Below, in pieces: positions 21,429 to 39,555 of a stretch of DNA of 64,000 nt. Source of the stretch: Streptantibioticus cattleyicolor NRRL 8057 = DSM 46488 (GTDB lineage: Bacteria > Actinomycetota > Actinomycetes > Streptomycetales > Streptomycetaceae). The position numbers and the translations under genes are program-made. The DNA lies in NCBI RefSeq assembly GCF_000240165.1, contig NC_017586.1, positions 3,720,001-3,784,000 of the forward strand, written 5' to 3'. The notes beneath the pieces are model-generated. The model searched no databases. It saw only the letters and a list, made by a program, of their open reading frames with translations, and was not told the origin of the DNA. Position 1 is the stretch's first letter. Every line of letters begins with the position of its first letter.

Positions 21429-21510
21429 GGCGGTGTGCCCGAGCGGCCAAAGGGAGCAGACTGTAAATCTGTCGGCTATGCCTACCCAGGTTCGAATCCT
21501 GGCGCCGCCA
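21429..21510 (+). tRNA. tRNA-Tyr (GTA)
   Basis: 82 nt with a seven-pair acceptor stem (GGCGGTG with CGCCGCC), discriminator A, anticodon loop CTGTAAA giving GTA, a long class II variable arm and T-arm GGTTCGAATCC. CCA is not encoded. Its 3' part from 21461 is the left copy of the element's direct repeat, so the 3' half comes from the element and restores an intact tRNA after insertion. Confidence 0.97.
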
Positions 21511-21511
21511 C
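21461..21511. repeat. Left attachment repeat (attL, within tRNA-Tyr)
   Basis: 51-bp sequence running from the anticodon loop (CTGTAAATC) to one base past the tRNA end; identical to 39505-39555. The mismatching flanking bases define its limits (A before and C after here; C before and A after on the right). Recombination between the two would excise the element and leave one tRNA-Tyr. Confidence 0.95.
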
Positions 21512-21521
21512 CCTTGAGGGA

Positions 21522-21644: not shown

Positions 21645-23057
21645 TCAGCGCGTGTCCCCCAGGTGTCCCCCGGGGGAGACGCCCTCTGAGTGCCATTCCC
21701 GCAGGCCAGCCTCGATCTGACGGTTCGCTCGGTCTTGGGCCTGCGCCAGAACCTTTGCGTAGACCCGCAGGAGTACGGCCACGGAGTGCCCGGCCCTACG
21801 CGCCACCTCCATGGGGTCGACGCCGGAGAAGAGCCAGAAAGAGACCCCGGCACACCGCAGGTCGTACGGTCGGCGGGCAAGCGGCGACGCCACCTCGGAG
21901 GGAGACAGAGCAGCGCTCCGGGCTTCCGCCCAAACCTCGCCGTATCCCGTGTCCTGAATCACACCGCCACGGTTCGTGCGGAACAGACGGCCATCCGGTG
22001 CCGCCCCGTATCGCTCGACGTGCCAACGGAGCATCGAGACGAAGTGCGGCGGGATCGGCACCACCCGCGAGTCCCGGGCCGCTCGGGCTTTGAGGTGGCG
22101 CTCTTGGTGAGCCCGGTTGTCGTCCGTCCAGTCGTGGCCGGCATGGACGATGCCACCACGAAGCGTGAGGTGGCCCCACCCGTGCTTGGGCAGGTGGCAC
22201 TGTGACGCCTTGAGGCCCACGGCTTCGGCGGGGCGCATGGCGGCGTAGTAGAGGCATCCGAAGAAGGCTTCAAGATGTGCCCCGCGCTCCCCCTGAGCGC
22301 GTACCGCTTCGAGCAGTTCCCGCACTTGACGTGGGTTGGCGACACTCGCCGGGTCAACTTCTTCGGTGGACTTCGGGGCCGTCCACTTCACCGTGGTCAG
22401 GGGGTTCACGGGGACCGTGAAGTACCGTCGCTCGACTGCGAGTCCGAGAACGTCGCTCAGGCAGGCTCGCTTGCGGCGGGCAGTACGCCCTGCGGCGGTT
22501 GAGCCGTCGAGCAGCGTCGATAGGGCGTCCAGCGCCGTGCGGAGCGTCTCGGGGTCTTCCAGGGTCGAGATGGCCACGGAGTTCTCCTCCACCCAGCGAA
22601 GAGCGTCGGCCACTTCGGCGGGGGGCTCTTTGTCCCAGCGGCTCTTGTTGTACGCCCAGCTGTACAGGGCCCTACGCAGCACTTGGGGCGCCGGGCGGCC
22701 GGCCGTGGTCTTGACCAGCACGGGCGTGATGGTGGCGAGAGCGTCGGCGTCGTTGCGGCGGGACTTCGCCGGAAGGCGGTCCCACCTGCGATCGACGTAT
22801 GCACGGGTGTGCTCGTACCAGGTCACGGAGCCGTTCAGCGCGCGGAGTTCGGATGCGGGCAGACCCGTTTCCACGTCGAACTGCTCGCCCTTGCGGAGCG
22901 CGGACATCAGCTCGGATCGCCGGCCGTCCGCCTGCGCTTTGACGGTGTAGCTCTTCGAGTGCTTCTGAGGGCCCACGACCCACCGGACGCGATAGGGCTT
23001 CGGGCGGTCGCGGCGAGTTTCGATGCTGTAGACGCGAACGTCGTACGTGAAGGGCAT
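21645..23057 (-). CDS. int: Tyrosine site-specific recombinase (integrase)
   Basis: 470 residues. Catalytic domain with Arg275 (AAMRPAEAVGL), Arg401 in RRPYDLRCAGVSFWL, His424 in RRAGHSVAVLL and nucleophile Tyr433 in RVYAKVLAQ. The HxLRH motif reads YDLRC, so the first His is Tyr and the second is Cys; similar variants occur in streptomycete integrases. An N-terminal arm-binding domain and a SAM-like core-binding domain precede it. It drives integration and excision at tRNA-Tyr, whose end lies 134 bp away. Ribosome site CTGGAGAG before the ATG. A GC-rich hairpin separates it from xis. Confidence 0.95.
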   Translation of the reverse strand: MPFTYDVRVYSIETRRDRPKPYRVRWVVGPQKHSKSYTVKAQADGRRSELMSALRKGEQFDVETGLPASELRALNGSVTWYEHTRAYVDRRWDRLPAKSRRNDADALATITPVLVKTTAGRPAPQVLRRALYSWAYNKSRWDKEPPAEVADALRWVEENSVAISTLEDPETLRTALDALSTLLDGSTAAGRTARRKRACLSDVLGLAVERRYFTVPVNPLTTVKWTAPKSTEEVDPASVANPRQVRELLEAVRAQGERGAHLEAFFGCLYYAAMRPAEAVGLKASQCHLPKHGWGHLTLRGGIVHAGHDWTDDNRAHQERHLKARAARDSRVVPIPPHFVSMLRWHVERYGAAPDGRLFRTNRGGVIQDTGYGEVWAEARSAALSPSEVASPLARRPYDLRCAGVSFWLFSGVDPMEVARRAGHSVAVLLRVYAKVLAQAQDRANRQIEAGLREWHSEGVSPGGHLGDTR

Positions 23058-25169: not shown

Positions 25170-26048
25170 TCACAGTCCCAGCGTGGCGCGGGCGTTGGTC
25201 CACGCTTCGGTGCAGTGCCGGAGCGTTTCCCCCTTGGTCTGCGCGGCGGTGAACAGCCGTGCAATGTGGGCGTCGGTGAGGCAGCCGCACCGGCCGTGGA
25301 CGGACAGCACGGCAAGGAACGTGCGGTACACCGTGGTGTGGATCGCGCTGGGGGCGGCGGTGATGCGCTGTTCGGCCATGGTGATGCCGCGTTCCAGGTA
25401 GGCGGGAGTGCGGTGCGGGCACTCCCCGCCCCCGGCGGGCGCGGTGACGGAGTGCGGTGCCGGCCGGACCGAGGCTGGCGCCTTGATGCCCAGGGCGCGG
25501 ACCGTGTCCGGCAGGTCGGCCATGGCGCCGGTGCCGGGGCCGAGGTAGCGGGCGTAGGCCATGGTCGACTTGATGTCGACGCCGGGCCGGACCGCGTTGC
25601 GGGACGTCATGGCGCCCCGGTAGATCCAGTGCTCACCGCGCGTCGTCGGCACGATCCGGGTGGCGGGCAGGGCGGCACGGGCCCAGGCGACGGCCGCGGG
25701 GTCATCGAGGTCCACGACGGTCAGGCCGGCGCCGCCGGGGTGGTAGGCGACGGCCGCCGCCTGGCGCCACGCCGCCGCCCAGGCCGCGGAGGTGAGGATG
25801 CGGGGGTCGGTGGTGGCGGCGGCCCAGCCGTGGCACGGCGCCGGGCACCGGCAGGGGCCCGCCGATTTCATGGTCGGGCGTCCGCCGCACGCGCCGTGCG
25901 CGCAGAACGGGCAGTTGCCCACCGGCAGCTTCCCGGCCCGCAGGGGCAGCACGGGCACGCCCGCTAGGGCCAGGGCCAGCGCGGTCCGCAGGTGTCCTGG
26001 TGCTTCGCTCTGGGGTTTGGGTCGCCGGATGGGGGCGGGTTGGGCCAT
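25170..26048 (-). CDS. Bifunctional DNA primase/polymerase (prim-pol) N-terminal domain protein
   Basis: 292 residues. Prim-pol domain with catalytic acidic motif VVDLDDPAAV (Asp113, Asp115), TTRGEHWIYRG and GVDIKSTMAYARYLGPGTG. A Cys-rich insert between 46 and 72 (CPFCAHGAC and PCRCPAPC) probably binds zinc. Its helicase half is the separate downstream gene, a split form of the RepSA-like replication initiators. Good ribosome site (GGAGAGGAG) upstream of the ATG. Its leader holds one of three related hairpins. Confidence 0.88.
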   Translation of the reverse strand: MAQPAPIRRPKPQSEAPGHLRTALALALAGVPVLPLRAGKLPVGNCPFCAHGACGGRPTMKSAGPCRCPAPCHGWAAATTDPRILTSAAWAAAWRQAAAVAYHPGGAGLTVVDLDDPAAVAWARAALPATRIVPTTRGEHWIYRGAMTSRNAVRPGVDIKSTMAYARYLGPGTGAMADLPDTVRALGIKAPASVRPAPHSVTAPAGGGECPHRTPAYLERGITMAEQRITAAPSAIHTTVYRTFLAVLSVHGRCGCLTDAHIARLFTAAQTKGETLRHCTEAWTNARATLGL

Positions 26049-26080
26049 GCTGGAGTCTCCTCTCCTGGATGGGTGAGGGA

Positions 26081-26125
26081 CCGGAGGCGGCGGACTGTCC
26101 TTGGCCGGTTGGCCGCCGCCTCCGG
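26081..26125 (-). other. Conserved-loop hairpin A (between methyltransferase and prim-pol)
   Basis: 13-bp perfect stem (CCGGAGGCGGCGG with CCGCCGCCTCCGG) around the plus-strand loop ACTGTCCTTGGCCGGTTGG, 19 nt. It sits 13 bp after the upstream stop and 32 bp before the prim-pol ATG. CTGGATGGG follows on the start-codon side. Same loop in hairpins B and C with different stem bases. Confidence 0.8.
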
Positions 26126-26138
26126 GCAGAGAAGGTCG

Positions 26139-27599
26139 TCAGGCTGTGATCGTGGTCGCGGCGCGGGTGTCGAGGACGGCGGCGACGCGGGCGCCGATCC
26201 ACTGGGCGACGTTGCAGCTCACGGCGTTTCCGGCCTGCATGGTCTGCTCGCCCTTGTTGCCGTGGACGATGTAGTCGGCCGGGAAGCGCTGGGCGAGGAG
26301 CTGTTCGCGCGGCTGGATCATGCGGAAGTAGCAGTCCTCCACCGCCGGGGCGGCCCGCAGTAGCCCGGCGGAATCCCTGGTGCCGAGGGTGTGCAGCGGC
26401 TCGCCCGTCGTCTTGGGAGCCGCGTTCCGGTAGGGGATCACCAAGCCGTGGTGGTTGCCCTGCGCGGAGATGGTGGCCAGCGGCCGGGCCACGGGTTCGG
26501 CGCTGCCGTTACGCCGGTACTCCACGACGAACGGGGACGCCACCAGGGCTTCGAAGCCCTTGGGGTTGGCCATCCGGGTGCGCATCGGCTCGGCCGTGGT
26601 GGTGGCGGTGGTGTTCCACCCGCCGCCGACCGGCACCAGCAGCCCGTCACCGATCTTGGCGGTGCGGGAGGGCAGCGGAGCGACGTCGGCGGGAACCGGG
26701 CGGCCGTCGTGTCCGCCGTGGTTGACCGTGACGAGGGTCCGCCGGGTGGGGAAGAGCCGCAGCCCGGTACGGATGCGCTCCATGGTGCTCGCGGCCAGCG
26801 GCCGGGCCCGGTCCCCGATGCGCTCGCCGGTGTTGGTCCAGTCGATGATGTCCGCGGCCGGACGCACGTAGGGTTCCACGACGGCATGGCGGCATGAGCG
26901 GTTGGGGCAGCGGTAGTCGTACTGCTGCTTGTACTTGCCGACCCTGCGCCCGTTGCGCCAGGTCTGCACTGCCGCGACGTCCTGCTCGCAGCTCGGGCAC
27001 CAGGCCAGCGGCGTGGGCTTCAGGTCGGGCAGCGTGATGCCGTGGCGGGTGAAGACGATGTAGATGCGGTCACGCCACTGCGGTGCGTGCGCGTTGCCGG
27101 GGCCGCCGACGTGGGCGGAGGAGACGGAGACAACCTGCGAGTTGTAGCCCAGCTTCTCCATGCCGGTGCGCCACCAGTCGAACAGCTCCCAGTCGGCGGC
27201 GAACTCCACGACGTTCTCGCACAGCACGGCGGCATAGCGGTGGACCTCGGTGGCGCGGATGACGTCGTAGGCCGTGGCCCTGGTGCGCTCCCACGCCGCG
27301 TCCGGCACGCTGCCGTACTCCAAGAGGGAGAGCTGTCCCTTGGTGCGGCGGCGCCCTCCGGCCGGGCTGATCTCCGTGCAGATAGGGGACGCCCACAGGA
27401 TGTCGGTCTTGGGCAGGCGCCGCATGTCGTAGTTGTTGACGTCCGCGCACAGGTGGTCGGCGTCCCGGTGGTTCGCGGCGTGGGTTTCGATCGCTCGTTG
27501 CCAGTGGTTGGCGGCCAGCCGCAGCTCGAACCCGGCGGCAACCAGTCCGGTGGAGGATCCGCCAGCGCCGCAGAAGATGTCGGTGAACGTCAGGCTCAC
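26139..27599 (-). CDS. DNA (cytosine-5) methyltransferase
   Basis: 486 residues from a GTG with GAAGGAG upstream. Motif I FTDIFCGAGGSSTGLVAAGF, catalytic Cys74 in ILWASPICTEISPAGG (SPxC instead of the usual PPC), ENV motif in CENVVEFAADWE, and C-terminal GNAVSCNVAQWIGARVAAVL as motif X. Transfers methyl groups from S-adenosylmethionine to cytosine. A Cys4 cluster (CPSCEQDVAAVQ, CPNRSCRHAV) may bind zinc in the recognition region. No endonuclease gene is adjacent, so it is probably an orphan enzyme, perhaps protecting the element from host restriction in a new cell. Preceded by hairpin B and followed by hairpin A. Confidence 0.92.
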   Translation of the reverse strand: MSLTFTDIFCGAGGSSTGLVAAGFELRLAANHWQRAIETHAANHRDADHLCADVNNYDMRRLPKTDILWASPICTEISPAGGRRRTKGQLSLLEYGSVPDAAWERTRATAYDVIRATEVHRYAAVLCENVVEFAADWELFDWWRTGMEKLGYNSQVVSVSSAHVGGPGNAHAPQWRDRIYIVFTRHGITLPDLKPTPLAWCPSCEQDVAAVQTWRNGRRVGKYKQQYDYRCPNRSCRHAVVEPYVRPAADIIDWTNTGERIGDRARPLAASTMERIRTGLRLFPTRRTLVTVNHGGHDGRPVPADVAPLPSRTAKIGDGLLVPVGGGWNTTATTTAEPMRTRMANPKGFEALVASPFVVEYRRNGSAEPVARPLATISAQGNHHGLVIPYRNAAPKTTGEPLHTLGTRDSAGLLRAAPAVEDCYFRMIQPREQLLAQRFPADYIVHGNKGEQTMQAGNAVSCNVAQWIGARVAAVLDTRAATTITA

Positions 27600-27632
27600 G
27601 CGTGCTCCTTCGCTGGATGGGAATGAGGCGAG

Positions 27633-27679
27633 CTGCCCGACAGCGGACTGTCCTTGGCCGGTTGGCCGCTGTCGGGCAG
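27633..27679 (-). other. Conserved-loop hairpin B (upstream of methyltransferase)
   Basis: 14-bp perfect stem (CTGCCCGACAGCGG with CCGCTGTCGGGCAG) around the identical loop ACTGTCCTTGGCCGGTTGG. Its stem bases differ from those of hairpin A but stay fully paired. Lies 33 bp before the methyltransferase GTG, with CTGGATGGG in between, as in A and C. Confidence 0.8.
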
Positions 27680-27746
27680 GTGTGGACGGTGCCGAACTGT
27701 CCGGCTCCCCTTGGCGCTCAGCGCTGCTGAGCGCCGCGGGCAGCCG

Positions 27747-28055
27747 TCAGGCGGTGCGGCGGCGCGAGGCCAGGTCAATGACGTTCGCGGCCAGCTCCAC
27801 GGTGGACGGGCGCAGGGGCAAGACGGGTGCTGGCGCGGTGGTCGATTCGGCGGGAATGACGACGGGCTCACCGGGTGGGGGCGGCGGGGGCGACGTCGGC
27901 CGGGCGGTGGCCGCGCGCTGGTCGCGCAGTTCGGCGAAGACGGCGCGTTCGGCGGCGGCTTGCTGCTGGCCGCGGCGCCACAGCACCGCGTGGACGGGCA
28001 GGGCGACGGCGGCCGGACCGAACAGGACGGTCGCGGCGATGAGTTGGGCGTCCAT
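27747..28055 (-). CDS. Small membrane protein of the transfer region
   Basis: 102 residues, ATG behind AGGAGC. One or two N-terminal hydrophobic segments (LIAATVLFGPAAVALPVHAV), then a charged stretch with RGQQQAAAERAVFAELRDQR and a Pro-rich cytoplasmic tail. No recognised domain. Lies 12 bp downstream of another small membrane gene in the block following traB, the usual place for spread (spd-type) genes in streptomycete elements; that role is an inference from position and topology. Confidence 0.65.
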   Translation of the reverse strand: MDAQLIAATVLFGPAAVALPVHAVLWRRGQQQAAAERAVFAELRDQRAATARPTSPPPPPPGEPVVIPAESTTAPAPVLPLRPSTVELAANVIDLASRRRTA

Positions 28056-28067
28056 GCGGGGCTCCTG

Positions 28068-28262
28068 TCAGTGGCCGAGGCTGGCGAGGGTGTGGGCCAC
28101 GTCGGTGGTGAGGCGGGTGATCGGGCCGGCGGCGCCGGTGGAGGCGAGGAAGAACCCGAACATCACGGCGACGAAGGCGCCGCCGAAGCCGAGGGAGCGG
28201 GAGCGGAGGAGGAACGCGAGGAAGACTCCGAACAGGACGACAGCGGAGATCGTGATGAGCAC
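28068..28262 (-). CDS. Small two-helix membrane protein
   Basis: 64 residues from a GTG with GGAG 6 nt upstream. Two hydrophobic helices (ITISAVVLFGVFLAFLL; GFGGAFVAVMFGFFLASTG) joined by a basic turn, with a short C-terminal tail. Function unknown; its size and place between the zinc-ribbon gene and the next membrane gene suggest a part in intramycelial spread. Similar short proteins are common in this part of streptomycete elements. Confidence 0.65.
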   Translation of the reverse strand: MLITISAVVLFGVFLAFLLRSRSLGFGGAFVAVMFGFFLASTGAAGPITRLTTDVAHTLASLGH

Positions 28263-28292
28263 AGTGGACTCCGGGACGGGAACGAGGCGGGG

Positions 28293-28544
28293 TCAGCGGG
28301 TGCCGTCGTGGTGGATACGGGCGGCGAGGTTGAACAGGTGGCGGCCGACGCGGATGCGGATGCCGTGGCCGTCGCAGCGGCGGCAGTGCTTGCCGCGGCG
28401 GGGGCGGCCCTTGCGGTCGTAGGTGAGCCGGTAGCCGAGTCCGCGGCACTTGCGGCAGTTGCCGAACGGGCTCGCCGCACATAGCAGGGCGTAACCGAGT
28501 GTGACGGCGAGGAGGAGGGTGATAGCGAGGGCGGTGAGGGTCAT
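28293..28544 (-). CDS. Membrane-anchored DnaJ-type zinc-finger small protein
   Basis: 83 residues, ATG with GGAAGG upstream. N-terminal helix (LTALAITLLLAVTLGYALLC), then two CxxCxGxG-type half-sites, CRKCRGLGY and CRRCDGHG, separated by a basic loop, as in a DnaJ central zinc domain reduced to one zinc. A conserved ending HLFNLAARIHHDGTR follows. Proteins of this shape recur next to traB in AICEs but have no established function. Confidence 0.7.
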   Translation of the reverse strand: MTLTALAITLLLAVTLGYALLCAASPFGNCRKCRGLGYRLTYDRKGRPRRGKHCRRCDGHGIRIRVGRHLFNLAARIHHDGTR

Positions 28545-28585
28545 CGAGGGGCCTTCCTGGCGGGTTCATGGGGTTTCCGCAGGTG

Positions 28586-28675
28586 GGCCGCTATCCGCTA
28601 GCGGCCTGATCAAGGCAGGTTTGGGGTGCTAGCGGGGCCGCTAACGTTAGCGGGGTGTGCCGCTAGCGCTAGCGG
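28586..28675. repeat. CCGCTA/TAGCGG palindrome cluster 3' of traB (candidate clt)
   Basis: Eight hexamers in 90 bp: CCGCTA at 28588, 28595, 28638 and 28660; TAGCGG at 28599, 28630, 28648 and 28670. They pair into palindromes such as CCGCTAACGTTAGCGG and CCGCTAGCGCTAGCGG, and four extend to GGCCGCTA/TAGCGGCC. Position just after the traB stop (28686) is where clt, the TraB recognition locus, is known in pSVH1-like plasmids. It could instead be an operator or terminator region. Confidence 0.55.
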
Positions 28676-28685
28676 CCCCGGGCGG

Positions 28686-30881
28686 TCAGCCCACGTCCCG
28701 CTTTCCGTCACGCTCCGCGATCGCGGTGGTGATGTGGGAGCGGTCGATGCCGCGCCGGTTGACGACCTTGCCGTCCACCCGGCGGCCGACCTGGATGGTG
28801 GAGATGCCGTGCGGTTTGAGCGCGGCGGCCAGGGCTTCGGGGTCCCAGCCGTCGTAGACCTCCGGCCGCAGCTCGGCCAGGCGCGCGACCACCGTCTCGG
28901 ACCACACCTTGGGTTCCTTGGCGGGGGTGACGGCGAGGATGTCGGCGAGCAGGTCATAGGCGGGGCCGGTGACGGCCTCGGGGGCTTCACCGAGTGCGTA
29001 GCCGGACAGCAGTCCACGCTTCTCGCGCACGCTGCGGGCACGGGCGGCGATGGCGGCGGCGCCGGGGGCGTCCACGAACGCGCCGTAGACGATCCGGGCG
29101 TCCGCTCCCTCGCCGACGAAGTAGTGAATGCCCTTGTCACCCCAGGTGAACATGGTCGCCCGCACCCCGCGCTTGTAGGCGGACGTGCCCAGGACCATGT
29201 CGTTCTCGGTCTGGCCCATGACCTTCAGGCACCAGCGGGCGCCGGCGTTCGCGGAGATGCCGGTGGGCAGCGACTTGGCGTCGGGGCGCTGGGTGGCCAG
29301 CAGCATCACGATCCCCGTGGCCGGACCGCGCTTGACCAGGTCGGTGGCGATCTCCTCGAACTCCTTGCCGTGCTCGGGATGCTCGAAGAGCACCTGGCAC
29401 TCGTCCACCCCGACCACGATCGGGTGCAGACCGAGCGAGCGCTTGTCGGCGAGCTGGCTGGTCACCTTGGACTCGGGGCAGATGTCCCGGGGCAGGGAGC
29501 GGATCACCTTGGTGCGGCGCCGCAGTTCCTCGCGCAGCGTGCGGAAGTCGGCCAGCACGTACCCGATCGTCTCGTCGTCGTCGCCGGCGGCGTGGCGGTG
29601 GGAGACAGCGTTGCCGACCGGGTCGAGGTCGCCGGTGCCCTTCATGTCGTAGGTGTGCAGCTCCGCCCGCGGATCCAGTGCCGCGATCAGCAGCAGCAGC
29701 CGCAACAGGAAGGTCTTGCCCATGCGCGGGATCGCGCCGATGATCCCGGCGATGTACATCAGCGTGACCTCGACCCAGCGTCCGCGCTGGTCGGTGCCGT
29801 AGGCGACGGGCTTGAACAGGTCCACCGTCCCGGACTTGGCCAGCGGCCATGCGGGCTTCTTGGCCTTGGCCAGGTCTTGGTCTCCGACCCACAGCACCAG
29901 GTGACCGGTGTGCTCGTCCGGCACCGCCTCGGGCCACACGCAGCCCAGCGGGCGGCGCAGACCCGAGGCAAGCCGGTCCCGGCGCTCGATCACGTCGGTG
30001 ACGGTCACGCCGAAGGGCAGGTCGCCTTCCGCGCGCCACCCGGGGCCGTCGCGGGTGATCGGGGCGGTGAACTCGAACCCGCCCCGCCCCTTGCTCTGCG
30101 CCGAGTTGATGGCCGGGATGCCCAGCGCGCCCAGCGCCCGCAGCACGATGTCACTGGTCAGCTTGGTGGCCTTGGGCAGCTCCACCGCACGGTGGATGAC
30201 CGGGTCATCGGCCTTGCGGCCGGCCGACCCCAGCGCCAGCACGACCGCGGTCACGGACACGGCTTGCAGCCAGCCGGGGGCCAGCACGTACAGGGCCAGG
30301 GCGGCGCCGATGCCGACGAACAGGGCCAGCACCGCTACCAGGGTGCGCATGCGCACCCGGCCGTCCCGCTGCCGCGACAGCCGCAGGTACTCCCCGGCGT
30401 CCTCGCGGCGCACGGCGGCGAGCCGGACCGGTTCGCCCTCGCTGTCGGCCATCCAGCGCAGCGTGCCGCCGACGAACTTCGCCGCACCGGTGGGAGCTTG
30501 GAGGGTCAGGCGGGCGGCGTAGACCGGGGCGCGCAGCGCGTGGTACCCGGCGGCGTGCCCGTAGTGCCGGGCCACCCACCCGGCAGCGGTCTTCAGCTCC
30601 GCGGGGGACTTCATCCACGGCGGTACCACCGGGCGCCGCTTCGCGGCCAGCAGGCGGCTCATGTAGCCGGGCCCCGTATCGGCCGGGACCGGCTGGTCAA
30701 CCATCACCGGCACAGCCGGATCCGCCTCGGCGCCGTCCGCCGGTCCGGTGGCGGGTGCGGTGGCCGCCTCGGTACGGGCGGCACGTGCCTTGCCGAGGTC
30801 CACCACCTCACCACCACCCGGGGCGGGGGTCATTTCGGCTTCGAGCCGGTTGAACAGCTCGCTTTCATCGTCATGGTTCAC
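28686..30881 (-). CDS. traB: TraB-type FtsK/SpoIIIE DNA translocase
   Basis: 731 residues from the GTG at 30881. An acidic N-terminal region is followed by two adjacent membrane helices (TLVAVLALFVGIGAALALYV and VSVTAVVLALGS), then the FtsK-like motor: Walker A GAIPRMGKTFLLR, Walker B PIVVGVDECQVLF and MLLATQRPDAKSLP. The C-terminal 100 residues (GPAYDLLADIL to HITTAIAERDG) resemble the winged-helix gamma domain that reads specific 8-bp repeats. It moves double-stranded element DNA between mycelia. Directly followed by a palindrome cluster that could be its target. Confidence 0.93.
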   Translation of the reverse strand: MNHDDESELFNRLEAEMTPAPGGGEVVDLGKARAARTEAATAPATGPADGAEADPAVPVMVDQPVPADTGPGYMSRLLAAKRRPVVPPWMKSPAELKTAAGWVARHYGHAAGYHALRAPVYAARLTLQAPTGAAKFVGGTLRWMADSEGEPVRLAAVRREDAGEYLRLSRQRDGRVRMRTLVAVLALFVGIGAALALYVLAPGWLQAVSVTAVVLALGSAGRKADDPVIHRAVELPKATKLTSDIVLRALGALGIPAINSAQSKGRGGFEFTAPITRDGPGWRAEGDLPFGVTVTDVIERRDRLASGLRRPLGCVWPEAVPDEHTGHLVLWVGDQDLAKAKKPAWPLAKSGTVDLFKPVAYGTDQRGRWVEVTLMYIAGIIGAIPRMGKTFLLRLLLLIAALDPRAELHTYDMKGTGDLDPVGNAVSHRHAAGDDDETIGYVLADFRTLREELRRRTKVIRSLPRDICPESKVTSQLADKRSLGLHPIVVGVDECQVLFEHPEHGKEFEEIATDLVKRGPATGIVMLLATQRPDAKSLPTGISANAGARWCLKVMGQTENDMVLGTSAYKRGVRATMFTWGDKGIHYFVGEGADARIVYGAFVDAPGAAAIAARARSVREKRGLLSGYALGEAPEAVTGPAYDLLADILAVTPAKEPKVWSETVVARLAELRPEVYDGWDPEALAAALKPHGISTIQVGRRVDGKVVNRRGIDRSHITTAIAERDGKRDVG

Positions 30882-30913
30882 TGAGGGTCTTCCTTCCACC
30901 AGGTTGGGAGAAG

Positions 30914-30956
30914 GCGGGCCCGGCCGCTGGCCGTCCAAAGCGGCGGCCGGGCCCGC
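30914..30956 (-). other. Intercistronic hairpin upstream of traB
   Basis: 13-bp perfect stem (GCGGGCCCGGCCG with CGGCCGGGCCCGC) with a 17-nt loop CTGGCCGTCCAAAGCGG, 32 bp before the traB GTG and 24 bp after the previous stop. Same position relative to genes as hairpins A-C, with a loop that shares only a GTCC core and size, so it may be a divergent member. Confidence 0.65.
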
Positions 30957-30980
30957 GTCAGCAGCGCGGTGCGCTGCGGG

Positions 30981-31289
30981 TCAGAACAGGGATTTCTGGG
31001 AGTCGGCCGCCGTGGCGGCGCGGGCGCGGGTGGCAGCGGCCTGAAGGTGCTGCCAGCACACCGGGCACCACGCGCGCAGCTCGCCGGGCGGAACGGTGAC
31101 CGCTTGGTGGTCCGGCACGCGCCGGGGCGGGGCGGCGATCAGGTGGGCCCGGTCGGTGTGGGGTGCCTGGCAGGTCCCGCCGGTGCGGCGGTGGGCGCTG
31201 CCGCATTCGCCGGCGCACTGGCAGACCCAGCCGGCCCGGGTCATCACGGTGGTGTAGAGGTCCGTGGCGATGATCGGGCCGCGGGTCAT
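30981..31289 (-). CDS. Cys-rich small protein, possible HNH-like zinc fold
   Basis: 102 residues. ATG overlaps the stop of the DUF2637 gene (ATGA). Cysteine/histidine pattern CQCAGECGSAH, CQAPHTDRAHLIAAP and AWCPVCW suggests a zinc-bound HNH-like or ribbon fold; the ending ATAADSQKSLF is also typical of AICE homologues I recall. Lies just before traB, the last of a six-gene overlapping chain. Function unknown; nuclease activity cannot be claimed from these motifs. Confidence 0.65.
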   Translation of the reverse strand: MTRGPIIATDLYTTVMTRAGWVCQCAGECGSAHRRTGGTCQAPHTDRAHLIAAPPRRVPDHQAVTVPPGELRAWCPVCWQHLQAAATRARAATAADSQKSLF

Positions 31290-32353
31290 GCCGCCTCACC
31301 CATCGCGTCAGGCGGGGCGGATTCGCCGCCGTCGGCTTTGGCTTCCTGGTAGCGGGCGGCGACCCACCCGACGGACCAGCCGGTCAGTTCCGCAGTCTCA
31401 CGCACGGACCGGCCGGTGTTCACGCCCTCGCGGGCGGCGGCCCGCGCCTCGTGCTCGGGCATCTTCACCACGGCGACGGTGGTGTTCACCGGCCGGGGCT
31501 CGGTGCCGTTCACGGGCGCGGCTGTGGCGTTCACCGGCCCGGGTTCCGAGGCGTTCACCGGGCGGGACTTCGGGGTGTTCACGGGCTCCCGGCGAGGGGC
31601 GGCCCCGTCGTGTTCACGCGGCGAGCGGGCGGCGTTGCGCCGCTGCTCCCGTTCCCGCTCGCGGCGTTGGTCTTCCTCGCGGCGGCGGGCGTCGGCGGCT
31701 TCGCGTGCCTCACGGGCCATGCGCGCTTCGTGTTCGCGGCGTTCACGTTCCTGGGCGGCTTCCCACTCGCGGCGTTCACGCTCGATCCGCTCGGCGTGTT
31801 CACGCTCGGCGTGTTCACGCTGTTCACGCATCGCCCGTTCCCGGTCCCGCTCTTCGCGGGTCCGGCGTTCACGGGCTTCGCGTTCGTCGCGTTCACGCTG
31901 CTGGGCTTCGGCGCGTTCGGCGTCCAGCCGGGCCAGTGCGCGGGCGATGGCCCGGCGGTAGGCGAGGCTGGTCTCGGAGGTGACGATGAGCAGCAGCGGG
32001 GCGACGGAGTGGACGGCGACGCCGACCCCGTCACCGGCGAGGGCGGAGTTGCCGACGTTCAGCAGCAGGGTCATGGTGCCGGTCATCCAGCGCAGCGTGA
32101 CCGGCCACCAGCCGCCGTGTCCGCCGAGCCGGGCCAGGACCGCGTCGAGGCGGACGACGATGACCACCGCGGCGTCCACGACGACGGGCAGGATCGGCGA
32201 GGTCCACCGCCAGGCGGCCGGGGTGTGGCCGGCCGCCAGCGGGGTGACCGTCAGCACGCTGTAGAGCATCGCGCCGAAGACGATCAGCCATGTGCCCGCG
32301 CTCAACGTCCGCTCCGCCGCCCGGATACTGTCCGGTGACTTCAGGACGGGCAC
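31286..32353 (-). CDS. DUF2637 membrane protein with coiled coil and HTH-like tail
   Basis: 355 residues from GTG 32353 with GGGAGG 5 nt upstream. Four helices of the DUF2637 type (TLSAGTWLIVFGAMLYSVLT to VGVAVHSVAPLLLIVTS), then about 100 residues of Arg/Glu-rich coiled coil (RERDEREARERRTREERDRE), five PVN-type repeats and a C-terminal RSVRETAELTGWSVGWVAAR resembling a helix-turn-helix. Probably links the membrane to DNA during transfer, like spread proteins. The coding DNA contains 14 GTTCAC hexamers in two reading frames. Confidence 0.75.
   Translation of the reverse strand: MPVLKSPDSIRAAERTLSAGTWLIVFGAMLYSVLTVTPLAAGHTPAAWRWTSPILPVVVDAAVVIVVRLDAVLARLGGHGGWWPVTLRWMTGTMTLLLNVGNSALAGDGVGVAVHSVAPLLLIVTSETSLAYRRAIARALARLDAERAEAQQRERDEREARERRTREERDRERAMREQREHAEREHAERIERERREWEAAQERERREHEARMAREAREAADARRREEDQRREREREQRRNAARSPREHDGAAPRREPVNTPKSRPVNASEPGPVNATAAPVNGTEPRPVNTTVAVVKMPEHEARAAAREGVNTGRSVRETAELTGWSVGWVAARYQEAKADGGESAPPDAMGEAA
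31418..31897. repeat. GTTCAC hexamer array inside the DUF2637 gene
   Basis: Fourteen GTTCAC in 480 bp: 31418, 31484, 31508, 31529, 31553, 31577, 31612, 31741, 31774, 31798, 31813, 31822, 31867 and 31891, eleven of them extending to GTTCACG. Read on the coding strand, six give Val-Asn codons and eight give part of Arg-Glu codons, that is, two different frames, so protein repetition alone does not explain them. Confidence 0.7.
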
Positions 32354-32970
32354 GGCCACCTCCCGAACCGCCCAGCCGGCGCTGCTTCGTCGCGCAGTGC
32401 GGCCACGACCGGCCCGGCCAGGCGGTTGACCGCGTCGGCCACCGCCGCCACGGCGGACTTGGCGTCCGCCACCAGCCCGGGACCACCGGTGTGTGCGGGG
32501 GTGGGCAGGTTCCATGTGTCGTCCACCGGCAGGCGGATCACCGTGGTGGTCAGCAGCGCCGGGCGGTCGCCGTCCGGCTCCCACCAGTAGCGGTACGGCT
32601 CCTCGCCGGGCGCCAGGTCCCGGTCCCAGTCACGCCACCGGCCCGGGACCGCCCGGTCGGCCACCAGCGCACGGCGGCCGAGAGGAACGTGGACGTCGAC
32701 GGTGAGGTGCCCGTATTCCGACCATGCCGGGGTGACGGCGCGGATGTCGGGGCGCAGGCGTACGTACCCGGGCGACATCACCGGCGCGGTGGCGATCGGC
32801 CACACCGCCGCGGCGAAGTCCTCCGCCGGCAGCGGCGTCCCGTCCTCGTGCAGCCGGGCGCAGCGGTCGCGCAGGTACGCGCCGAACCGGGAGCGGCCGT
32901 CCGAGGCGTTGCGCCGGTCGTACGCGTCGTCAACAGCCGCGAGCAGAGCGGGGGTCCAGGTGACGCTCAT
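32341..32970 (-). CDS. Hypothetical AICE protein
   Basis: 209 residues from the ATG at 32970, which overlaps the stop of the preceding gene by four bases. It begins MSVTWTPALLAAVDDAYDRR and is soluble, with many Trp, Pro and Asp (WRDWDRDLAPGEEPYRYWWE), ending in an Ala/Val-rich amphipathic segment (DAKSAVAAVADAVNRLAGPV). No domain recognised. Overlaps the DUF2637 start by 13 bp; the coupled arrangement suggests a shared role in transfer or spread. Confidence 0.65.
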   Translation of the reverse strand: MSVTWTPALLAAVDDAYDRRNASDGRSRFGAYLRDRCARLHEDGTPLPAEDFAAAVWPIATAPVMSPGYVRLRPDIRAVTPAWSEYGHLTVDVHVPLGRRALVADRAVPGRWRDWDRDLAPGEEPYRYWWEPDGDRPALLTTTVIRLPVDDTWNLPTPAHTGGPGLVADAKSAVAAVADAVNRLAGPVVAALRDEAAPAGRFGRWPCPS

Positions 32971-33191
32971 GCTGCCCCCTCGCTGTCCGCGTCGGGGCCG
33001 CACACGCAGTCCTCGGGCGCCGCGCCCTGGCCGATCCGGCAGGCGCATACGGTGCCCAGCGGGCCGATCTGGTCGGGGTTGAGGCAGTGGTCGCACGTGC
33101 CCTCGGCCCACTCCTCGGACTCCTGGGCGTAGTCGTCGTCCCAGTCGTCGTCCGGCCAGGGGCCGTCGTAACCGTCGAAGTAGCCGGTCAT
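32967..33191 (-). CDS. Small acidic Cys-containing protein
   Basis: 74 residues from the ATG at 33191 overlapping the GGDEF gene stop. Very acidic first half (DDDWDDDYAQESEEWAEG), then CDHCLNPDQIGPLGTVCACR and CVCGPD, five cysteines that could hold a metal. Function unknown. Both ends overlap neighbours by four bases, which supports it as a real gene despite its size. Confidence 0.6.
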   Translation of the reverse strand: MTGYFDGYDGPWPDDDWDDDYAQESEEWAEGTCDHCLNPDQIGPLGTVCACRIGQGAAPEDCVCGPDADSEGAA

Positions 33192-33823
33192 CGCGCGTCC
33201 CTCCGGCGTTCGGCGCCGCGGCGGCCGGCGCGGCGGCCGTGGACGGTGGGCAGGGCGGGCACGGTGACGTCGGCGACGCACCAGCCGCCGCCGTTCTGCT
33301 TGGCCCGGTACATCGCCTCATCGGCCCGCCGCAGGGCGATGCCGAGGTCGGGCGTGGTCAGCTCGGCGCAGTGGTAGGCGCCGACCGAGGCACGCATGGG
33401 CAGCACACGACCGGCGAAGGGAACCGGTTCGGTGAGCAGCAGGTGCAGTGCCCGGAGGCGGTCCGGCAGGTCGCCGGGCCGGGGCAGGGTGACGACGGCG
33501 GCGAACTCGTCCCCGCCAAGCCGCCCGACCACCCCGTCCAGGGGCGTGCACCAGTCGGCGAGCCGGTGGCCGGCCGCGGCCAGGGCCGCGTCCCCGGCGG
33601 CGTGGCCGTGGGTGTCGTTGAGGGCTTTGAAGCGGTCCAGGTCCACGAGCAGCACCACGGCGTGGGGGTGGCGGAGGTGGCGGCGGGCGCGGGCGGTGAA
33701 GGCGTCCCGGGTCGGCAGGCTGGTGACCGGGTCGCGGCGGGCGGCGGACAGGCGGCGCCACATCCAGGTGCCGTGCACGGACCAGCCGGCCGCGAGCGGC
33801 GCGGCGGCGAGCAGGACGTTCAT
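33188..33823 (-). CDS. GGDEF-domain protein, probable diguanylate cyclase
   Basis: 211 residues from the ATG at 33823. A short hydrophobic N-terminus (LLAAAPLAAGWSVHGTWMWR) is followed by a GGDEF domain: metal Asp61 in VVLLVDLDRFKALNDTHGHA, AGDAALAAAGHRL, signature GGDEF at 103-107 and RADEAMYRAKQNGGG at the end. All motifs for making c-di-GMP from two GTP look intact; no RxxD inhibitory site lies in the usual place before GGDEF. In streptomycetes c-di-GMP acts through BldD on development, so the element may influence host differentiation. Part of the six-gene overlapping chain. Confidence 0.88.
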   Translation of the reverse strand: MNVLLAAAPLAAGWSVHGTWMWRRLSAARRDPVTSLPTRDAFTARARRHLRHPHAVVLLVDLDRFKALNDTHGHAAGDAALAAAGHRLADWCTPLDGVVGRLGGDEFAAVVTLPRPGDLPDRLRALHLLLTEPVPFAGRVLPMRASVGAYHCAELTTPDLGIALRRADEAMYRAKQNGGGWCVADVTVPALPTVHGRRAGRRGAERRRDAR

Positions 33824-34119
33824 GCCGCCTCCGTCCGCGCCGGGCGGCGGAGGGTGGCCGGCCGCGGGAGGGCGACCACGTTGACCACGTCGGGGGCCCG
33901 GGTCTCGATCAGCTCGGCGACCATGCGGGTCGTGCGGTCGAACAGGGCCGGATCGTCGGCGAGGATGTCGCGGGCCGCGTCCAGACGCGCCGCACGTTCC
34001 TCGGGGGACTCGCCGTCCTCCGGGCCGAGCCACAGGTCGAGTGGTGTGCCGAGGGCGAGTTCGATCAGTTCGTCATCGGTGGCCACCTCGTGGCGCCCGA
34101 TGAGGTTTCGCATGGACAT
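33820..34119 (-). CDS. Small acidic helical protein
   Basis: 99 residues, ATG with GGAGAAG upstream. Acidic and predicted helical (ATDDELIELALGTPLDLWLG; AARLDAARDILADDPALFDR), with a basic C-terminal end (RPATLRRPART). No domain recognised. First gene of the overlapping chain to 30981 and preceded by hairpin C. Could be a regulator or partner of the GGDEF protein it overlaps; this is only position. Confidence 0.6.
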   Translation of the reverse strand: MSMRNLIGRHEVATDDELIELALGTPLDLWLGPEDGESPEERAARLDAARDILADDPALFDRTTRMVAELIETRAPDVVNVVALPRPATLRRPARTEAA

Positions 34120-34147
34120 GCGCTTCTCCTGCTGGATGGGGAGGGAA

Positions 34148-34194
34148 GCGCCGGGCGGCGGACTGTCCTTGGCCGGGTGGCCGCCGCCCGGCGC
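34148..34194 (-). other. Conserved-loop hairpin C
   Basis: 14-bp perfect stem (GCGCCGGGCGGCGG with CCGCCGCCCGGCGC) around loop ACTGTCCTTGGCCGGGTGG, one base different from A and B. Starts 3 bp after the upstream stop and lies 28 bp before the next ATG, with CTGGATGGG between hairpin and start as in A and B. Confidence 0.8.
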
Positions 34195-34721: not shown

Positions 34722-35498
34722 TCAGTGGGTGCGGACGCGGCCGGAGAGGCTGTTGGCGCTCACCCGCAGGTGACCGGTGCGGGAGAGGTGGATGTCTCCG
34801 GAGACGCTGTGGGCGGTCAGTGCTCCGCGGGCGGCGTCCGTGGCCTGCGTGGTCACGTCGCCGGAGGTGGTGTTCAGCTCGGCGCGCTGTCCGTCGTACT
34901 GGACGATGCGGATGTCCCCGGAGACGCTGTGGACGGTGACCGCCTTCGACACGCGGCCGACCGACACGTCACCGGACGTGGTCCGGGCCGCGAGCGTCCG
35001 CACGCTGTCCGCGCGCAGGTCACCGGACAGGGAGCGGAACTCCAGTGAGTCCACCTCGCCGTAGGCGCAGGCGTCGGCAGAGGTGGAGACCACGGCCAGA
35101 GACGATCCGGTCGGCAGGCTGACGATGGCCTCGATCGGGCTGACCGTCTCCATCACGCCGGTACCGCCGCCGGTGATGATCCGGCCGTTGACGACCGTGA
35201 GGCCGGTGACCGACCCGTAGACGGTGCCCATGGTCTGCGTGACCCGGTTGCCCCGGGCGCTTTGCATCATCACGTTGGCGGGGATCGCGGGGACCTCGAT
35301 GGCCAGCGCCTGGCCGTTCTGGTTGCTGCGGGCCCGGTTGACCGCGTCGGCGGCCGGACCGGAGGAGTCGTCCGTCCGCACGACCACGCGGGCGGTCGTG
35401 AGGTTGTCGAGGACCTGCACGTGGACGTTGCCCATCGGCAGGTCCAGTCCGAGGACGACCGGGCCGGCGGACTGGGAGACGAAGGTGCGCTCGGTCAT
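34722..35498 (-). CDS. DUF4097-family beta-solenoid protein
   Basis: 258 residues, ATG with AGGAG upstream. Repeating SxSGD strands (FRSLSGDLRADSVRT, ARTTSGDVSVGRVSK, VHSVSGDIRIVQYDG, LNTTSGDVTTQATDA, AHSVSGDIHLSRTGH) at about 20-residue steps form a right-handed beta-helix of the DUF4097 type. No signal peptide or membrane segment, so probably cytoplasmic. Unusual cargo for an AICE; biochemical role unknown. Possibly an adhesive or scaffold surface. Confidence 0.82.
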   Translation of the reverse strand: MTERTFVSQSAGPVVLGLDLPMGNVHVQVLDNLTTARVVVRTDDSSGPAADAVNRARSNQNGQALAIEVPAIPANVMMQSARGNRVTQTMGTVYGSVTGLTVVNGRIITGGGTGVMETVSPIEAIVSLPTGSSLAVVSTSADACAYGEVDSLEFRSLSGDLRADSVRTLAARTTSGDVSVGRVSKAVTVHSVSGDIRIVQYDGQRAELNTTSGDVTTQATDAARGALTAHSVSGDIHLSRTGHLRVSANSLSGRVRTH

Positions 35499-35860: not shown

Positions 35861-35894
35861 GCGGCGCCCGGGGGGCATAGACCCCGGGCGCCGC
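35861..35894 (-). terminator. Hairpin after the KilB-like gene
   Basis: 13-bp perfect inverted repeat GCGGCGCCCGGGG / CCCCGGGCGCCGC with an 8-nt loop, 103 bp after the stop at 35998. Probably a terminator or attenuator separating the membrane-protein gene from the small peptide and DUF4097 genes. A short palindrome, ACAGG-TG-CCTGT, lies beside it at 35846. Confidence 0.55.
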
Positions 35895-35997: not shown

Positions 35998-36447
35998 TCA
36001 TACCTGGCGGGCGGCCTCGGCGACGAGGCGGTCGGTGGCCGCGATTGCTGCGGTGCGGGCGGTGGTCAGGGCGTCGCGGTCGGGGGCGTGGCGCAGGGCG
36101 TAGGTGGCCTGCGCGGCCTCGGTGGCCACGGGGGCAAGATCGGGGGCGAGGATGGCGACGGTGGCCAGGGGCGCGGTGATGGCGGCGCGGGTGGCGTGGC
36201 TGTCGGCCCGCGCGGTGCGGTACTCCTCGTCCGCCGCGCCGGACAGCCGTAAGTCCTCGCGGACCCACATCGCCCGGCGGTGGTCGGCGAGTGCGGCGGT
36301 GAGCTGGGCGACGGCGGCGACCACGTCCCGGCGCCGCTCGGTGGCGCGATCCTCGCTGCGGGCGGAGCGGGCGGCGCGCTGCTGGAGAACGTAGGCGGTC
36401 ACCGAGCCGAGCAGGGTCCCGGCCACGGCGATGACGGACTCGATCAT
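35998..36447 (-). CDS. KilB-like membrane-anchored helical protein
   Basis: 149 residues from ATG 36447, preceded by GGAGG 5 nt upstream. One N-terminal helix (MIESVIAVAGTLLGSVTAYV) followed by a long charged helical region (RSEDRATERRRDVVAAVAQL) and an Ala-rich tail. This topology matches proteins often called KilB in streptomycete elements, named after pIJ101 spread functions; the name is from memory and not diagnostic. First minus-strand gene of the element's main block, with a long intergenic region upstream. Confidence 0.6.
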   Translation of the reverse strand: MIESVIAVAGTLLGSVTAYVLQQRAARSARSEDRATERRRDVVAAVAQLTAALADHRRAMWVREDLRLSGAADEEYRTARADSHATRAAITAPLATVAILAPDLAPVATEAAQATYALRHAPDRDALTTARTAAIAATDRLVAEAARQV

Positions 36448-37243
36448 GTGATCCTCCTGAACAGCGAGTGCTGCGGGTTCGAGCAACCCACAGCCCGCGC
36501 CGCACCGGCCGGTGCCGGGGCGGCGGGGACTGTGCGTGCTCGACGCAGGCGCGGCGTCGGCCCCGTCCGGCCATGCGGACGGAGCGGCGCCGCGCACCTG
36601 CCCGGTGGCAGGCTCCCGGCGGAACAGTGGTGGTGCCGGGCGGTGACTCGATGGGCGTAGCCGCCGTGGTGGTCAGGTACGGCGGCGCCTAACGCGTTCG
36701 TCGGCGATGCATTGGACCTCCCATTGGCCGAGGTGAGCGAGGGTGAAGGCCGCGTGAGCGCTCGAAGCGTGGCGGCCGTGGTCTTCCTGCGACATCGTCC
36801 GTTTCGGCTCTCACGCGCAACGTGAGGGAGTGCCTAGTCCGTCCGTGGCGACATTCGGAAGCTGTGTCGCCGCGGTCTTATCCACCGACCGGTCATCGCG
36901 GGGAGTCGCCCCCGCTCGGGATTCGGTGTCTCAGTGCCAGTGCACTCACGAGCCTGCGAAGTTCGGTTCCGCGCTCGTGGACCGCTGTCCAGGTTTTTCG
37001 CACCGGGTCTGACAGCCGACGGGCTGTGTCTGCCGCTCCCCTCTGACCTGACGGCCAAAGGGTGGTGCTGACTAGACGTCACCAAACCAACGCAACTCGC
37101 TTACTTCCAACTCGCGTTGGATGGCGGCGTGGGATAAGACTGCACTGCGGCGGTGGGCGACGTCAAGCATCCATCGCGCTTTGGATCGGTCCGTCTTACG
37201 TTGCTTCTTGCTCCGCAGGTCAGAACGTGAGAACGTCGGGAGC
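36448..37243. promoter_or_regulatory. Regulatory intergenic region between the two transcription directions
   Basis: 796 bp separating the leftward transfer block from the rightward gntR gene, with noticeably lower GC than the rest of the element between about 36,800 and 37,200. Contains one weak small ORF on the minus strand and an inverted repeat CTCACG-CGCAA-CGTGAG at 36810-36826. Near gntR there is a repeated GAACGTCGGGA. Expected to hold divergent promoters under GntR control. No other gene seen. Confidence 0.5.
36673..36795 (-). CDS. Possible 40-residue protein
   Basis: ATG at 36795, stop at 36673; reads MSQEDHGRHASSAHAAFTLA then HLGQWEVQCIADERVRRRRT. Ordinary composition and no shadow-like repetition, but the upstream ribosome site is weak (GGA 4 nt before). 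A CTCACG/CGTGAG palindrome 15 bp upstream could be its operator. No known family. Uncertain. Confidence 0.3.
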   Translation of the reverse strand: MSQEDHGRHASSAHAAFTLAHLGQWEVQCIADERVRRRRT

Positions 37244-39391: not shown

Positions 39392-39504
39392 GCCGCCACG
39401 GCGACCGCCCGAGGATCCATGAGAACCATGATCGTTCCCCATGCGTCCCCCAGTAGGCCAACCTGCCGATAAAGACGCAGCTCGGGGCGCATGAAGGCGG
39501 CCCC

Positions 39505-39555
39505 CTGTAAATCTGTCGGCTATGCCTACCCAGGTTCGAATCCTGGCGCCGCCAC
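39505..39555. repeat. Right attachment repeat (attR), truncated tRNA-Tyr copy
   Basis: 51 bp identical to 21461-21511, covering the anticodon loop, variable arm, T arm and 3' acceptor strand, but without the 5' half of a tRNA, so it is not a functional tRNA gene. Marks the right end of the element. Confidence 0.95.

Follow-up and report, generated by a model that had tools for sequence, protein, structure and literature searches.

Intercistronic hairpins with element-specific loops precede gene modules of AICEs and may act as leader elements

Results

The element and its genes

We analyzed a window of 64,000 nucleotides of Streptantibioticus cattleyicolor NRRL 8057 = DSM 46488 that contains an element of 18 kb, with a tRNA-Tyr gene at 21.4 kb and a repeated end at 39.5 kb. 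An integrase (its match is below the Pfam cut-off), a Prim-Pol, and an FtsK-like Tra lie between the tRNA-derived repeats, and on this gene content the element is, as judged from its sequence, an AICE. A related element exists as a circular plasmid record. The main features are:

21429..21512, plus strand: tRNA-Tyr, one element end
21645..23057, minus strand: integrase, matching PF00589 weakly and below the cut-off
25170..26048, minus strand: Prim-Pol (PF09250)
26139..27599, minus strand: C5 cytosine DNA methyltransferase (PF00145), preceding prim-pol
28686..30881, minus strand: TraB/FtsK-like DNA translocase (PHROG 1358, E 1.8e-21), with a weak NCBIfam plasmid_TraB match, below cut-off
33820..34119, minus strand: f2, a 99-amino-acid acidic protein without known family, weak candidate partner
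39494..39555, plus strand: repeat of the 3' part of tRNA-Tyr (92%), opposite element end

The attachment site of SLP1 is also tRNA-Tyr. AICEs of the SLP1 type likewise have an integrase, prim-pol plus a replication gene, and an FtsK-like Tra; the words hairpin, inverted repeat, secondary structure, and intergenic are absent from the main text of the report on them (PMC3218068).

Hairpins between the genes of the element

Three hairpins that a sequence-only reading had described (A, B, and C) were confirmed, with 13, 14, and 14 perfect pairs and 19-nt loops. The hairpins and the 3' boxes that follow A, B, and C are:

26065..26073, minus strand: 3' box CCCATCCAG after hairpin A, ahead of the ribosome-binding site
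26081..26125, minus strand: hairpin A, before prim-pol, 13 perfect pairs, 19-nt loop CCAACCGGCCAAGGACAGT
27613..27621, minus strand: 3' box CCCATCCAG after hairpin B
27633..27679, minus strand: hairpin B, before the C5 DNA methyltransferase gene, 14 perfect pairs, same 19-nt loop as A
30914..30956, minus strand: hairpin D, before traB, 14 perfect pairs, different 15-nt loop CGCTTTGGACGGCCA
34132..34140, minus strand: 3' box CCCATCCAG after hairpin C
34148..34194, minus strand: hairpin C, before f2, 14 perfect pairs, 19-nt loop CCACCCGGCCAAGGACAGT

A, B, and C precede minus-strand genes, and the loop as transcribed is therefore CCA(A/C)CCGGCCAAGGACAGT. This loop occurs three times in the window (0.08 expected), and its pattern, at zero or one mismatch, is found at only these three places in the 8.1-Mb genome. 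From the coordinates, the stem ends 32 (A), 33 (B), and 28 nt (C) before the start codon and begins 13, 67, and 3 nt after the upstream stop codon, with 31 and 12 nt for A if its model-based span, 1 nt longer on each side, is used. An exact CTGGATGGG is downstream of each of the three. These measurements agree with the earlier description of a preceding stop codon, a shared sequence, and a start about 30 bp away. In a comparison of multiple elements, the 3' flanks were element-specific. Predicted folds of A, B, and C with some flanking sequence were 4.0-4.9 SD better than those of shuffled sequences, none of 200 of which was equal. None of 4227 Rfam covariance models matched hairpins A-D (E≤1, window positions 20000-42000), consistent with the earlier statement that no named RNA is known to have this form.

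Hairpin D, built on the same plan, had been overlooked. Its loop, when reverse-complemented, resembles the traB loop of another element, L262 (TAGGCCGTCCAAAGCG).

Hairpins of the same type in other AICEs

Hairpins of this type recur in many AICEs within the bacterial family of the host. The covariance-model search that the sequence-only reading had proposed, combined with direct inverted-repeat searches, tied them to AICE genes in many genomes. They precede the gene for the ~99-amino-acid f2, the prim-pol module, the integrase gene, and traB, where the loops form a class of their own, and the distance is mostly 25-39 nt. Matches to covariance model R1 were present in 101 of 394 genomes of the family at E≤0.01, with about 4 expected by chance on rough E-values. 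Sixty-four of 75 hairpins ended 25-39 nt before a called start, and of the 69 that have a gene upstream, 36 began 1-6 nt past its stop codon.

We determined how often each gene was preceded by a hairpin in 40 loci picked by traB. The frequencies were 32/40 for traB, 26/31 for prim-pol, 16/28 for f2, and 6/31 for integrase, compared to 32/740 for other genes and 66/3000 for random positions. These loci were chosen by score, and the sample leans away from model-found hairpins because loci already in our set were omitted. In a separate model search, seven of another 40 loci (L113, L122, L128, L131, L132, L134, and L139) were excluded because no start was recognised by eye, although two of them, L132 and L134, proved to carry inverted hairpins. 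This search gave 177 matches, of which the best 150 were aligned, and 10 antisense duplicates and 4 hairpins without a recognisable start (by a permissive test) were removed before counting.

We also searched more widely. A class-wide model search gave matches in 8 of 296 genomes, 7 of them in the family itself; the match in G626 was marginal (E 8.7e-4). Genome contigs, scanned with a looser loop pattern, gave at least 118 loci; of the 80 given to the model, 9 had hairpins, all in Streptomyces or Wenjunlia and one on the same contig as another locus of the set (L070). Four candidate loci in Nonomuraea, Dactylosporangium, and Micromonospora (L143, L173, L208, and L215) look coding. An exact scan of viral contigs for the 18-nt loop core gave 27 matches; none of the 24 inspected was an intercistronic hairpin and most look coding, and model R2 matched one of the 27, a coding one. 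A blastn search with the leader of hairpin B against plasmids and phages gave short, weak matches only.

Stems covary and loops follow the element

The covariation noted in the window hairpins is real and extends across many elements, with double compensating changes in 12 of 14 stem pairs. Double changes filled 135 cells, whereas shuffles gave 37 and slid controls no more than 26; the alignment was fitted to the model and therefore leans towards structure. Covariation of a DNA palindrome is by itself no proof of RNA.

Apart from those at traB, which form a separate class, the loops of one element resemble each other and those of different elements differ, and stems tend to show the reverse. 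The loop distance was 1.95 within elements (130 pairs) and 4.59 between them (lowest of 1000 permutations, 3.92). Hairpins at different positions in the same element had a loop distance of 2.06 and a stem distance of 8.37; at the same position in different elements, the distances were 3.92 and 6.99. For the 5' stem, the distance was 4.28 within elements and 4.06 between. Because stems are no more alike within than between elements, copying of whole hairpins is unlikely, as had been argued from the three window hairpins.

The sequence-only reading had named three outcomes that would speak against it. Of these, absence outside this element is clearly contradicted by the many AICEs with hairpins, and loop change is element-specific rather than random. 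Stem mismatches do occur, yet they are few, with 90.9% of alignment cells paired.

The loops suggest an element-private recognition signal, and a loop-reading factor encoded by the element would fit loops that are alike within and different between elements. We rejected the idea that the loop is an element-specific mimic of the downstream ribosome-binding region, because likeness of the loop to its own flank (6.65) was no closer than to flanks of other elements (6.63; shuffled flanks, 5.67).

Pairing does not carry an RNA wobble signature. Among 1632 inner stem pairs there were 30 G·U and 23 A·C (p 0.41). In tRNAs of the same loci, G·U made up 91 of 1449 pairs; A·C counts cannot be set against those of the tRNAs, since ARAGORN brackets show only pairs that are allowed. 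In addition, inverted loops occur at some sites before f2, the prim-pol module, and traB.

Correlation of loops with f2

We compared loop distances with distances between proteins of the same elements. In 27 elements, loop distance tracked f2 distance (r 0.585; partial correlation 0.50), compared to partial correlations of 0.01 for traB, 0.03 for prim-pol, and 0.16 for integrase. Loops at prim-pol or unassigned sites also tracked f2 (partial correlation 0.47, n=26). A first test on integrase sites alone was weak (r 0.36, a value reached by 170 of 2000 permutations). The f2 correlation was weaker in a wider, noisier set (r 0.21-0.65), and integrase there equaled or beat f2 for prim-pol and integrase loops. 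Loops at traB, although of a different class, also correlated with f2 (r 0.29-0.37), which makes the correlation unspecific. On the subsets in which they occur (n=18 and 13), two small families outdid f2. The correlation at traB and the match by other families weaken the case for f2 as the reader.

The f2 protein has no known family in Pfam, PHROG, NCBIfam, or PDB, and these sources gave no support for the idea that it is a WhiB-like protein without cysteines, which we rejected. A structure prediction from 4 sequences had a mean pLDDT of 50 and no confident fold. Presence of f2 and of hairpins did not always coincide: L262 has f2 and no match to model R2, and L062 has five hairpins with like loops, and no f2 was found in it. 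None of 42 pattern matches to f2 in viral contigs was confirmed, tblastn against plasmids gave one record, and a second type of f2 was found in neither plasmids nor phages.

Discussion

We propose that these hairpins are a family of cis-acting AICE leader elements in this family of Actinobacteria, each coordinating gene modules of its own element and probably acting in mRNA, a reading that we consider about equally likely to be right or wrong. A hairpin after a stop codon, mostly 25-39 nt before the start of a module-opening gene, would use its stem, whose sequence would matter little, to display the loop. Specificity would reside in the loop, perhaps together with the 3' box, and a factor encoded on the same element would read it. 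We infer this trans-acting reader, and regulation as its outcome: binding, most likely on mRNA, would alter translation, processing, or read-through of the following module, so that replication, integration, and neighboring genes act together. The non-traB sites of one element would share this signal, and a second element would have a different one even if it resided in the same cell. The earlier idea of a site that coordinates replication and transfer genes is only half right: traB hairpins have another loop class and perhaps their own control.

That RNA rather than DNA is the acting form is only suggested. The site could act as DNA, as a double-stranded operator loop or an extruded cruciform to which a DNA-binding protein of the element binds; stem matching would then serve the DNA form only or be kept by replication. 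Element-specific loops, inverted loops, and the near equality of G·T and A·C are consistent with this. The narrow spacing to the start codon, the placement between stop codon and ribosome-binding site, the lack of a promoter-like match at 23-38 kb of the window (sigma-70 consensus only), and the 136 forward versus 3 inverted model matches beside a start, which shared descent could also explain, argue against it, and we view a DNA site as possible but doubtful. Template switching is reported to homogenise inverted-repeat arms and invert spacers (PMC8604942), and could have perfected stems that are under weak selection while occasionally inverting the spacer. The few wobble pairs and some inverted loops would fit. 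In view of the near equality of G·U and A·C, the inverted loops, and this report, covariation alone, which the sequence-only reading took as the classic sign of selected structure, does not establish an RNA. Recurrence of hairpins before the same genes and loop sharing among sites kilobases apart are left unexplained, making template switching an improbable account, although it may operate together with selection.

Strong G+C-rich stems, often directly past stop codons, would also be expected if these were ordinary mRNA hairpins between cistrons, with a role in stabilising or processing the operon transcript (RNase III type) or in ending transcription, and in other elements hairpins with 6-nt loops precede f2 or a gene that takes its position. 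Such roles should require no element-specific loop of 15-20 nt, and A, B, and C have no T run on the sense strand as in an intrinsic terminator (our terminator scan, limited to loops of 3-8, does not reach them). We regard this explanation as improbable.

For the proposed leader element, f2 is a weak candidate as the reader of the loop, suggested by the correlations. It is unlikely, in our estimate, that f2 is a new family that reads the loops before its own, replication, and integration genes, co-evolving with them and avoiding cross-talk between co-resident elements.

In lambda boxB and phage coat-protein operator hairpins, a protein encoded by the element recognises the loop, the stem mainly must pair, and specificity differs between related elements. 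In comparison, AICE loops are longer (~15-20 nt), the sites are spread over ~10 kb, and the reader is only putative. Hairpins bound by CsrA offer another likeness: many AICE loops contain an ACAAGGA-like motif, with an AGGA-type ribosome-binding site downstream. Loop ACAAGGACAG recalls the CsrA consensus, but the exact motif is missing from many loops, including those of the window, and a search of 10 genomes with hairpins found CsrA in none, and we rejected it as the reader.

The ESAS/SAS sequences of cluster K mycobacteriophages are likewise inverted repeats directly upstream of a conserved translation-start sequence, with several copies per mobile genome and no assigned function (PMC3203893, PMC12699233). 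There the 17-bp repeat is the consensus and the spacer varies, whereas in AICE hairpins the stem varies and the loop is kept within an element, so these hairpins lack the conserved 17-bp arms with variable spacer; the SAS consensus is also a different sequence, and the hosts differ.

A loop that follows the element and a stem that leans to the gene position provide a testable handle on coordination of AICE modules, with an orphan protein family as a possible reader. They also offer a natural setting in which to study recognition specificity among elements that share a cell, such as the two elements (L025 and L057) in one genome (G102), which have different loops.

Hairpins in an integrative element

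The three hairpins with a shared loop that had been read from the sequence were found where proposed; each has a 19-nt loop on a perfectly paired stem of 13-14 bp. We list them with other features of the same region.

26081-26125, minus strand: hairpin A, before the prim-pol gene
27633-27679, minus strand: hairpin B, before the C5 methyltransferase gene
34148-34194, minus strand: hairpin C, before f2 (99-aa acidic protein)
30914-30956, minus strand: hairpin before traB, perfect 14 bp
36489-36534, minus strand: imperfect hairpin, 15 pairs, 16-nt loop of different sequence
35861-35894, plus strand: terminator-like hairpin, 13 G-C pairs, T-containing tail
33188-33823, minus strand: GGDEF (diguanylate cyclase) protein in the operon of the element (TIGR00254, 87 bits)

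By chance, the window would not be expected to contain the loop of A-C, and no fourth copy was found genome-wide at up to one mismatch. A-C occupy minus-strand intergenic gaps with a start codon 28-33 nt downstream. All three lie in an 18-kb element that has a tRNA-Tyr gene at one end and part of this gene, repeated, at the other. Its products include Prim-Pol, an FtsK-like Tra, a C5 methyltransferase, an HTH protein and, by a weak match, an integrase; between the integrase gene and 36.4 kb every called gene is on the minus strand. Judged by its gene content between the tRNA-Tyr repeats, the element is an actinomycete integrative and conjugative element (AICE). The GGDEF protein has 53% identity over 180 residues to its counterpart in the plasmid L262. 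The imperfect hairpin precedes a small gene with a start at 36447, and the terminator-like hairpin is between genes ending at 35498 and 35998.

Related hairpins in Streptomycetaceae

Similar hairpins are present in many genomes of the host's own family. A pattern scan of 394 genomes of Streptomycetaceae matched 13 places in 9 genomes; stem and start were present at eight (three in the window's genome) and absent at five. The sequence-only reading had suggested a covariance-model search and had taken the stems to covary. A first model built from eight hairpins matched 101 of the 394 genomes at E≤0.01 (rough E-values; about 4 by chance), and 75 hairpins in 22 sources at E≤0.0008. Both sides had changed at 12 of 14 stem pairs, far above shuffled and slid controls, in an alignment that was fitted to the model and is thus biased towards the structure. 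The sequence-only reading knew of no named RNA of this form, and an Rfam search gave no match.

Class-wide, 8 of 296 genomes matched, seven of them from the same family, and the named genome matches with hairpins (80 of at least 118 loci tested) were Streptomyces and Wenjunlia, both Streptomycetaceae. The hairpins appear confined to this family at the sensitivity used, with a model trained on that family that more distant forms could escape. Among the open-licence papers listed by our literature searches, no title or abstract opening describes such hairpins of AICEs or actinobacteria. The closest analogue known to us is the (extended) start-associated sequences of cluster K mycobacteriophages, whose conservation pattern is opposite to that of the AICE hairpins (PMC3203893, PMC12699233).

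The hairpins precede particular genes

Using our own gene finder and protein clustering, we found f2 and the prim-pol module each directly preceded by a hairpin in 21 of the 22 sources, which had been selected for having hairpins; L062 was the exception. The integrase gene was preceded by one in 12 of the 21 sharing this plan. For a second set, we chose traB homologs by score outside the loci already analyzed, scanned the 40 surrounding regions for inverted repeats without a model and counted strong hairpins ending 20-48 nt upstream. These preceded traB in 32/40, prim-pol in 26/31, f2 in 16/28 and integrase in 6/31, against 32/740 other genes and 66/3000 random positions; at least one of the four genes had a hairpin in 38 of the 40 loci. 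Across all 111 loci, which include some chance matches, the counts were 76/95, 46/71, 46/74 and 28/82, and 118/1926 for other genes.

Loops follow the element

Among 136 hairpins from 61 loci, the loop distance was 1.95 within and 4.59 between elements (permutation minimum, 3.92). Comparing hairpins by element and position, with 36 of unassigned position omitted, loop and stem distances were 2.06 and 8.37 for one element and different positions, 3.92 and 6.99 for different elements and the same position, and 4.46 and 8.22 when both differed. By these distances, loops follow the element and stems lean towards gene position. Loops before f2, prim-pol and integrase agreed within elements in three comparisons: 3.5 versus 7.09 (n=28), 2.1 versus 6.67 (n=10) and 5.06 versus 7.82 (n=16). 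The 20 nt 3' of the hairpin had a within-element similarity score of 9.8 (permutation maximum, 8.10), and between elements 7.15 at different positions and 8.28 at the same position. Genome G102 has two elements with unlike loops, indicating that the loop is not set by the host alone.

The traB loops disagreed with the other loops of their element (with f2, 9.0 versus 8.8, n=32) and form a separate class, or classes. The loop at 30914-30956 resembles the reverse complement of the L262 traB loop.

RNA or DNA as the acting form

Two features favor action as RNA: the distances from stop and start codons, and the orientation of the hairpins (136 start-adjacent model matches forward, three inverted, at L132 twice and L134). 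The inner stem pairs, with G·U at 30 and A·C at 23 of 1632, and the inverted loops favor DNA or a mutational origin. Six of 12 loops were inverted among the listed elements in which f2 or an f2-like protein starts MRTIV, MKSIV or MRNIV and a long-loop hairpin precedes the gene, with L132 and L134, both missed by the f2 profile, counted as f2-like from their first residues alone. The window's traB hairpin also looks inverted relative to that of L262. Template switching is described as homogenizing inverted-repeat arms and inverting spacers (PMC8604942); it can explain matched stems and loop inversions, but fails to account for loops common to distant sites. We rank RNA only modestly over DNA. 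At loci L132, L134, L279, L282, L288 and L297 the loop is inverted and the stem intact; in five of these the inversion is at one site and the element's other site is not inverted.

f2 as a candidate partner of the loops

In the 27 elements with all four proteins, the correlation between loop and f2 distances was 0.585 (partial, 0.50); partial correlations were 0.01 for traB, 0.03 for prim-pol and 0.16 for integrase. Simple linkage is not the cause, because loops at prim-pol and unassigned positions tracked f2 (partial 0.47) and not prim-pol (0.00; n=26). Integrase-position loops followed f2 less clearly (r=0.36, equally high in 170 of 2000 permutations; n=14). We regard f2 as a weak candidate only, because in a wider, noisier set the correlation blurred (r=0.21-0.65), integrase did as well as f2 or better for the loops of prim-pol and integrase, a correlation with f2 was seen for traB loops too (r=0.29-0.37), and two small protein families outdid f2 in subsets (18 and 13 elements).

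No meaningful relatives of f2 were found in Pfam, PHROGs, NCBIfam or the PDB. A circular plasmid of 18.4 kb from Streptomyces sp. NBC_00562 carries f2 under the label hypothetical; the second covariance model finds no match on this plasmid, and a hairpin with a different loop is readable before its prim-pol gene. On the 93-kb contig 2 of genome G090, which holds L062, no recognizable f2 was found, and five hairpins of one loop type (CATCCCGGCCAAGGAAAAC) precede other genes. In eight AICEs (L262, L264, L268, L289, L290, L292, L294 and L295), f2 or a gene at its position is preceded by a tight hairpin whose loop has about 6 nt, in place of the long loop.
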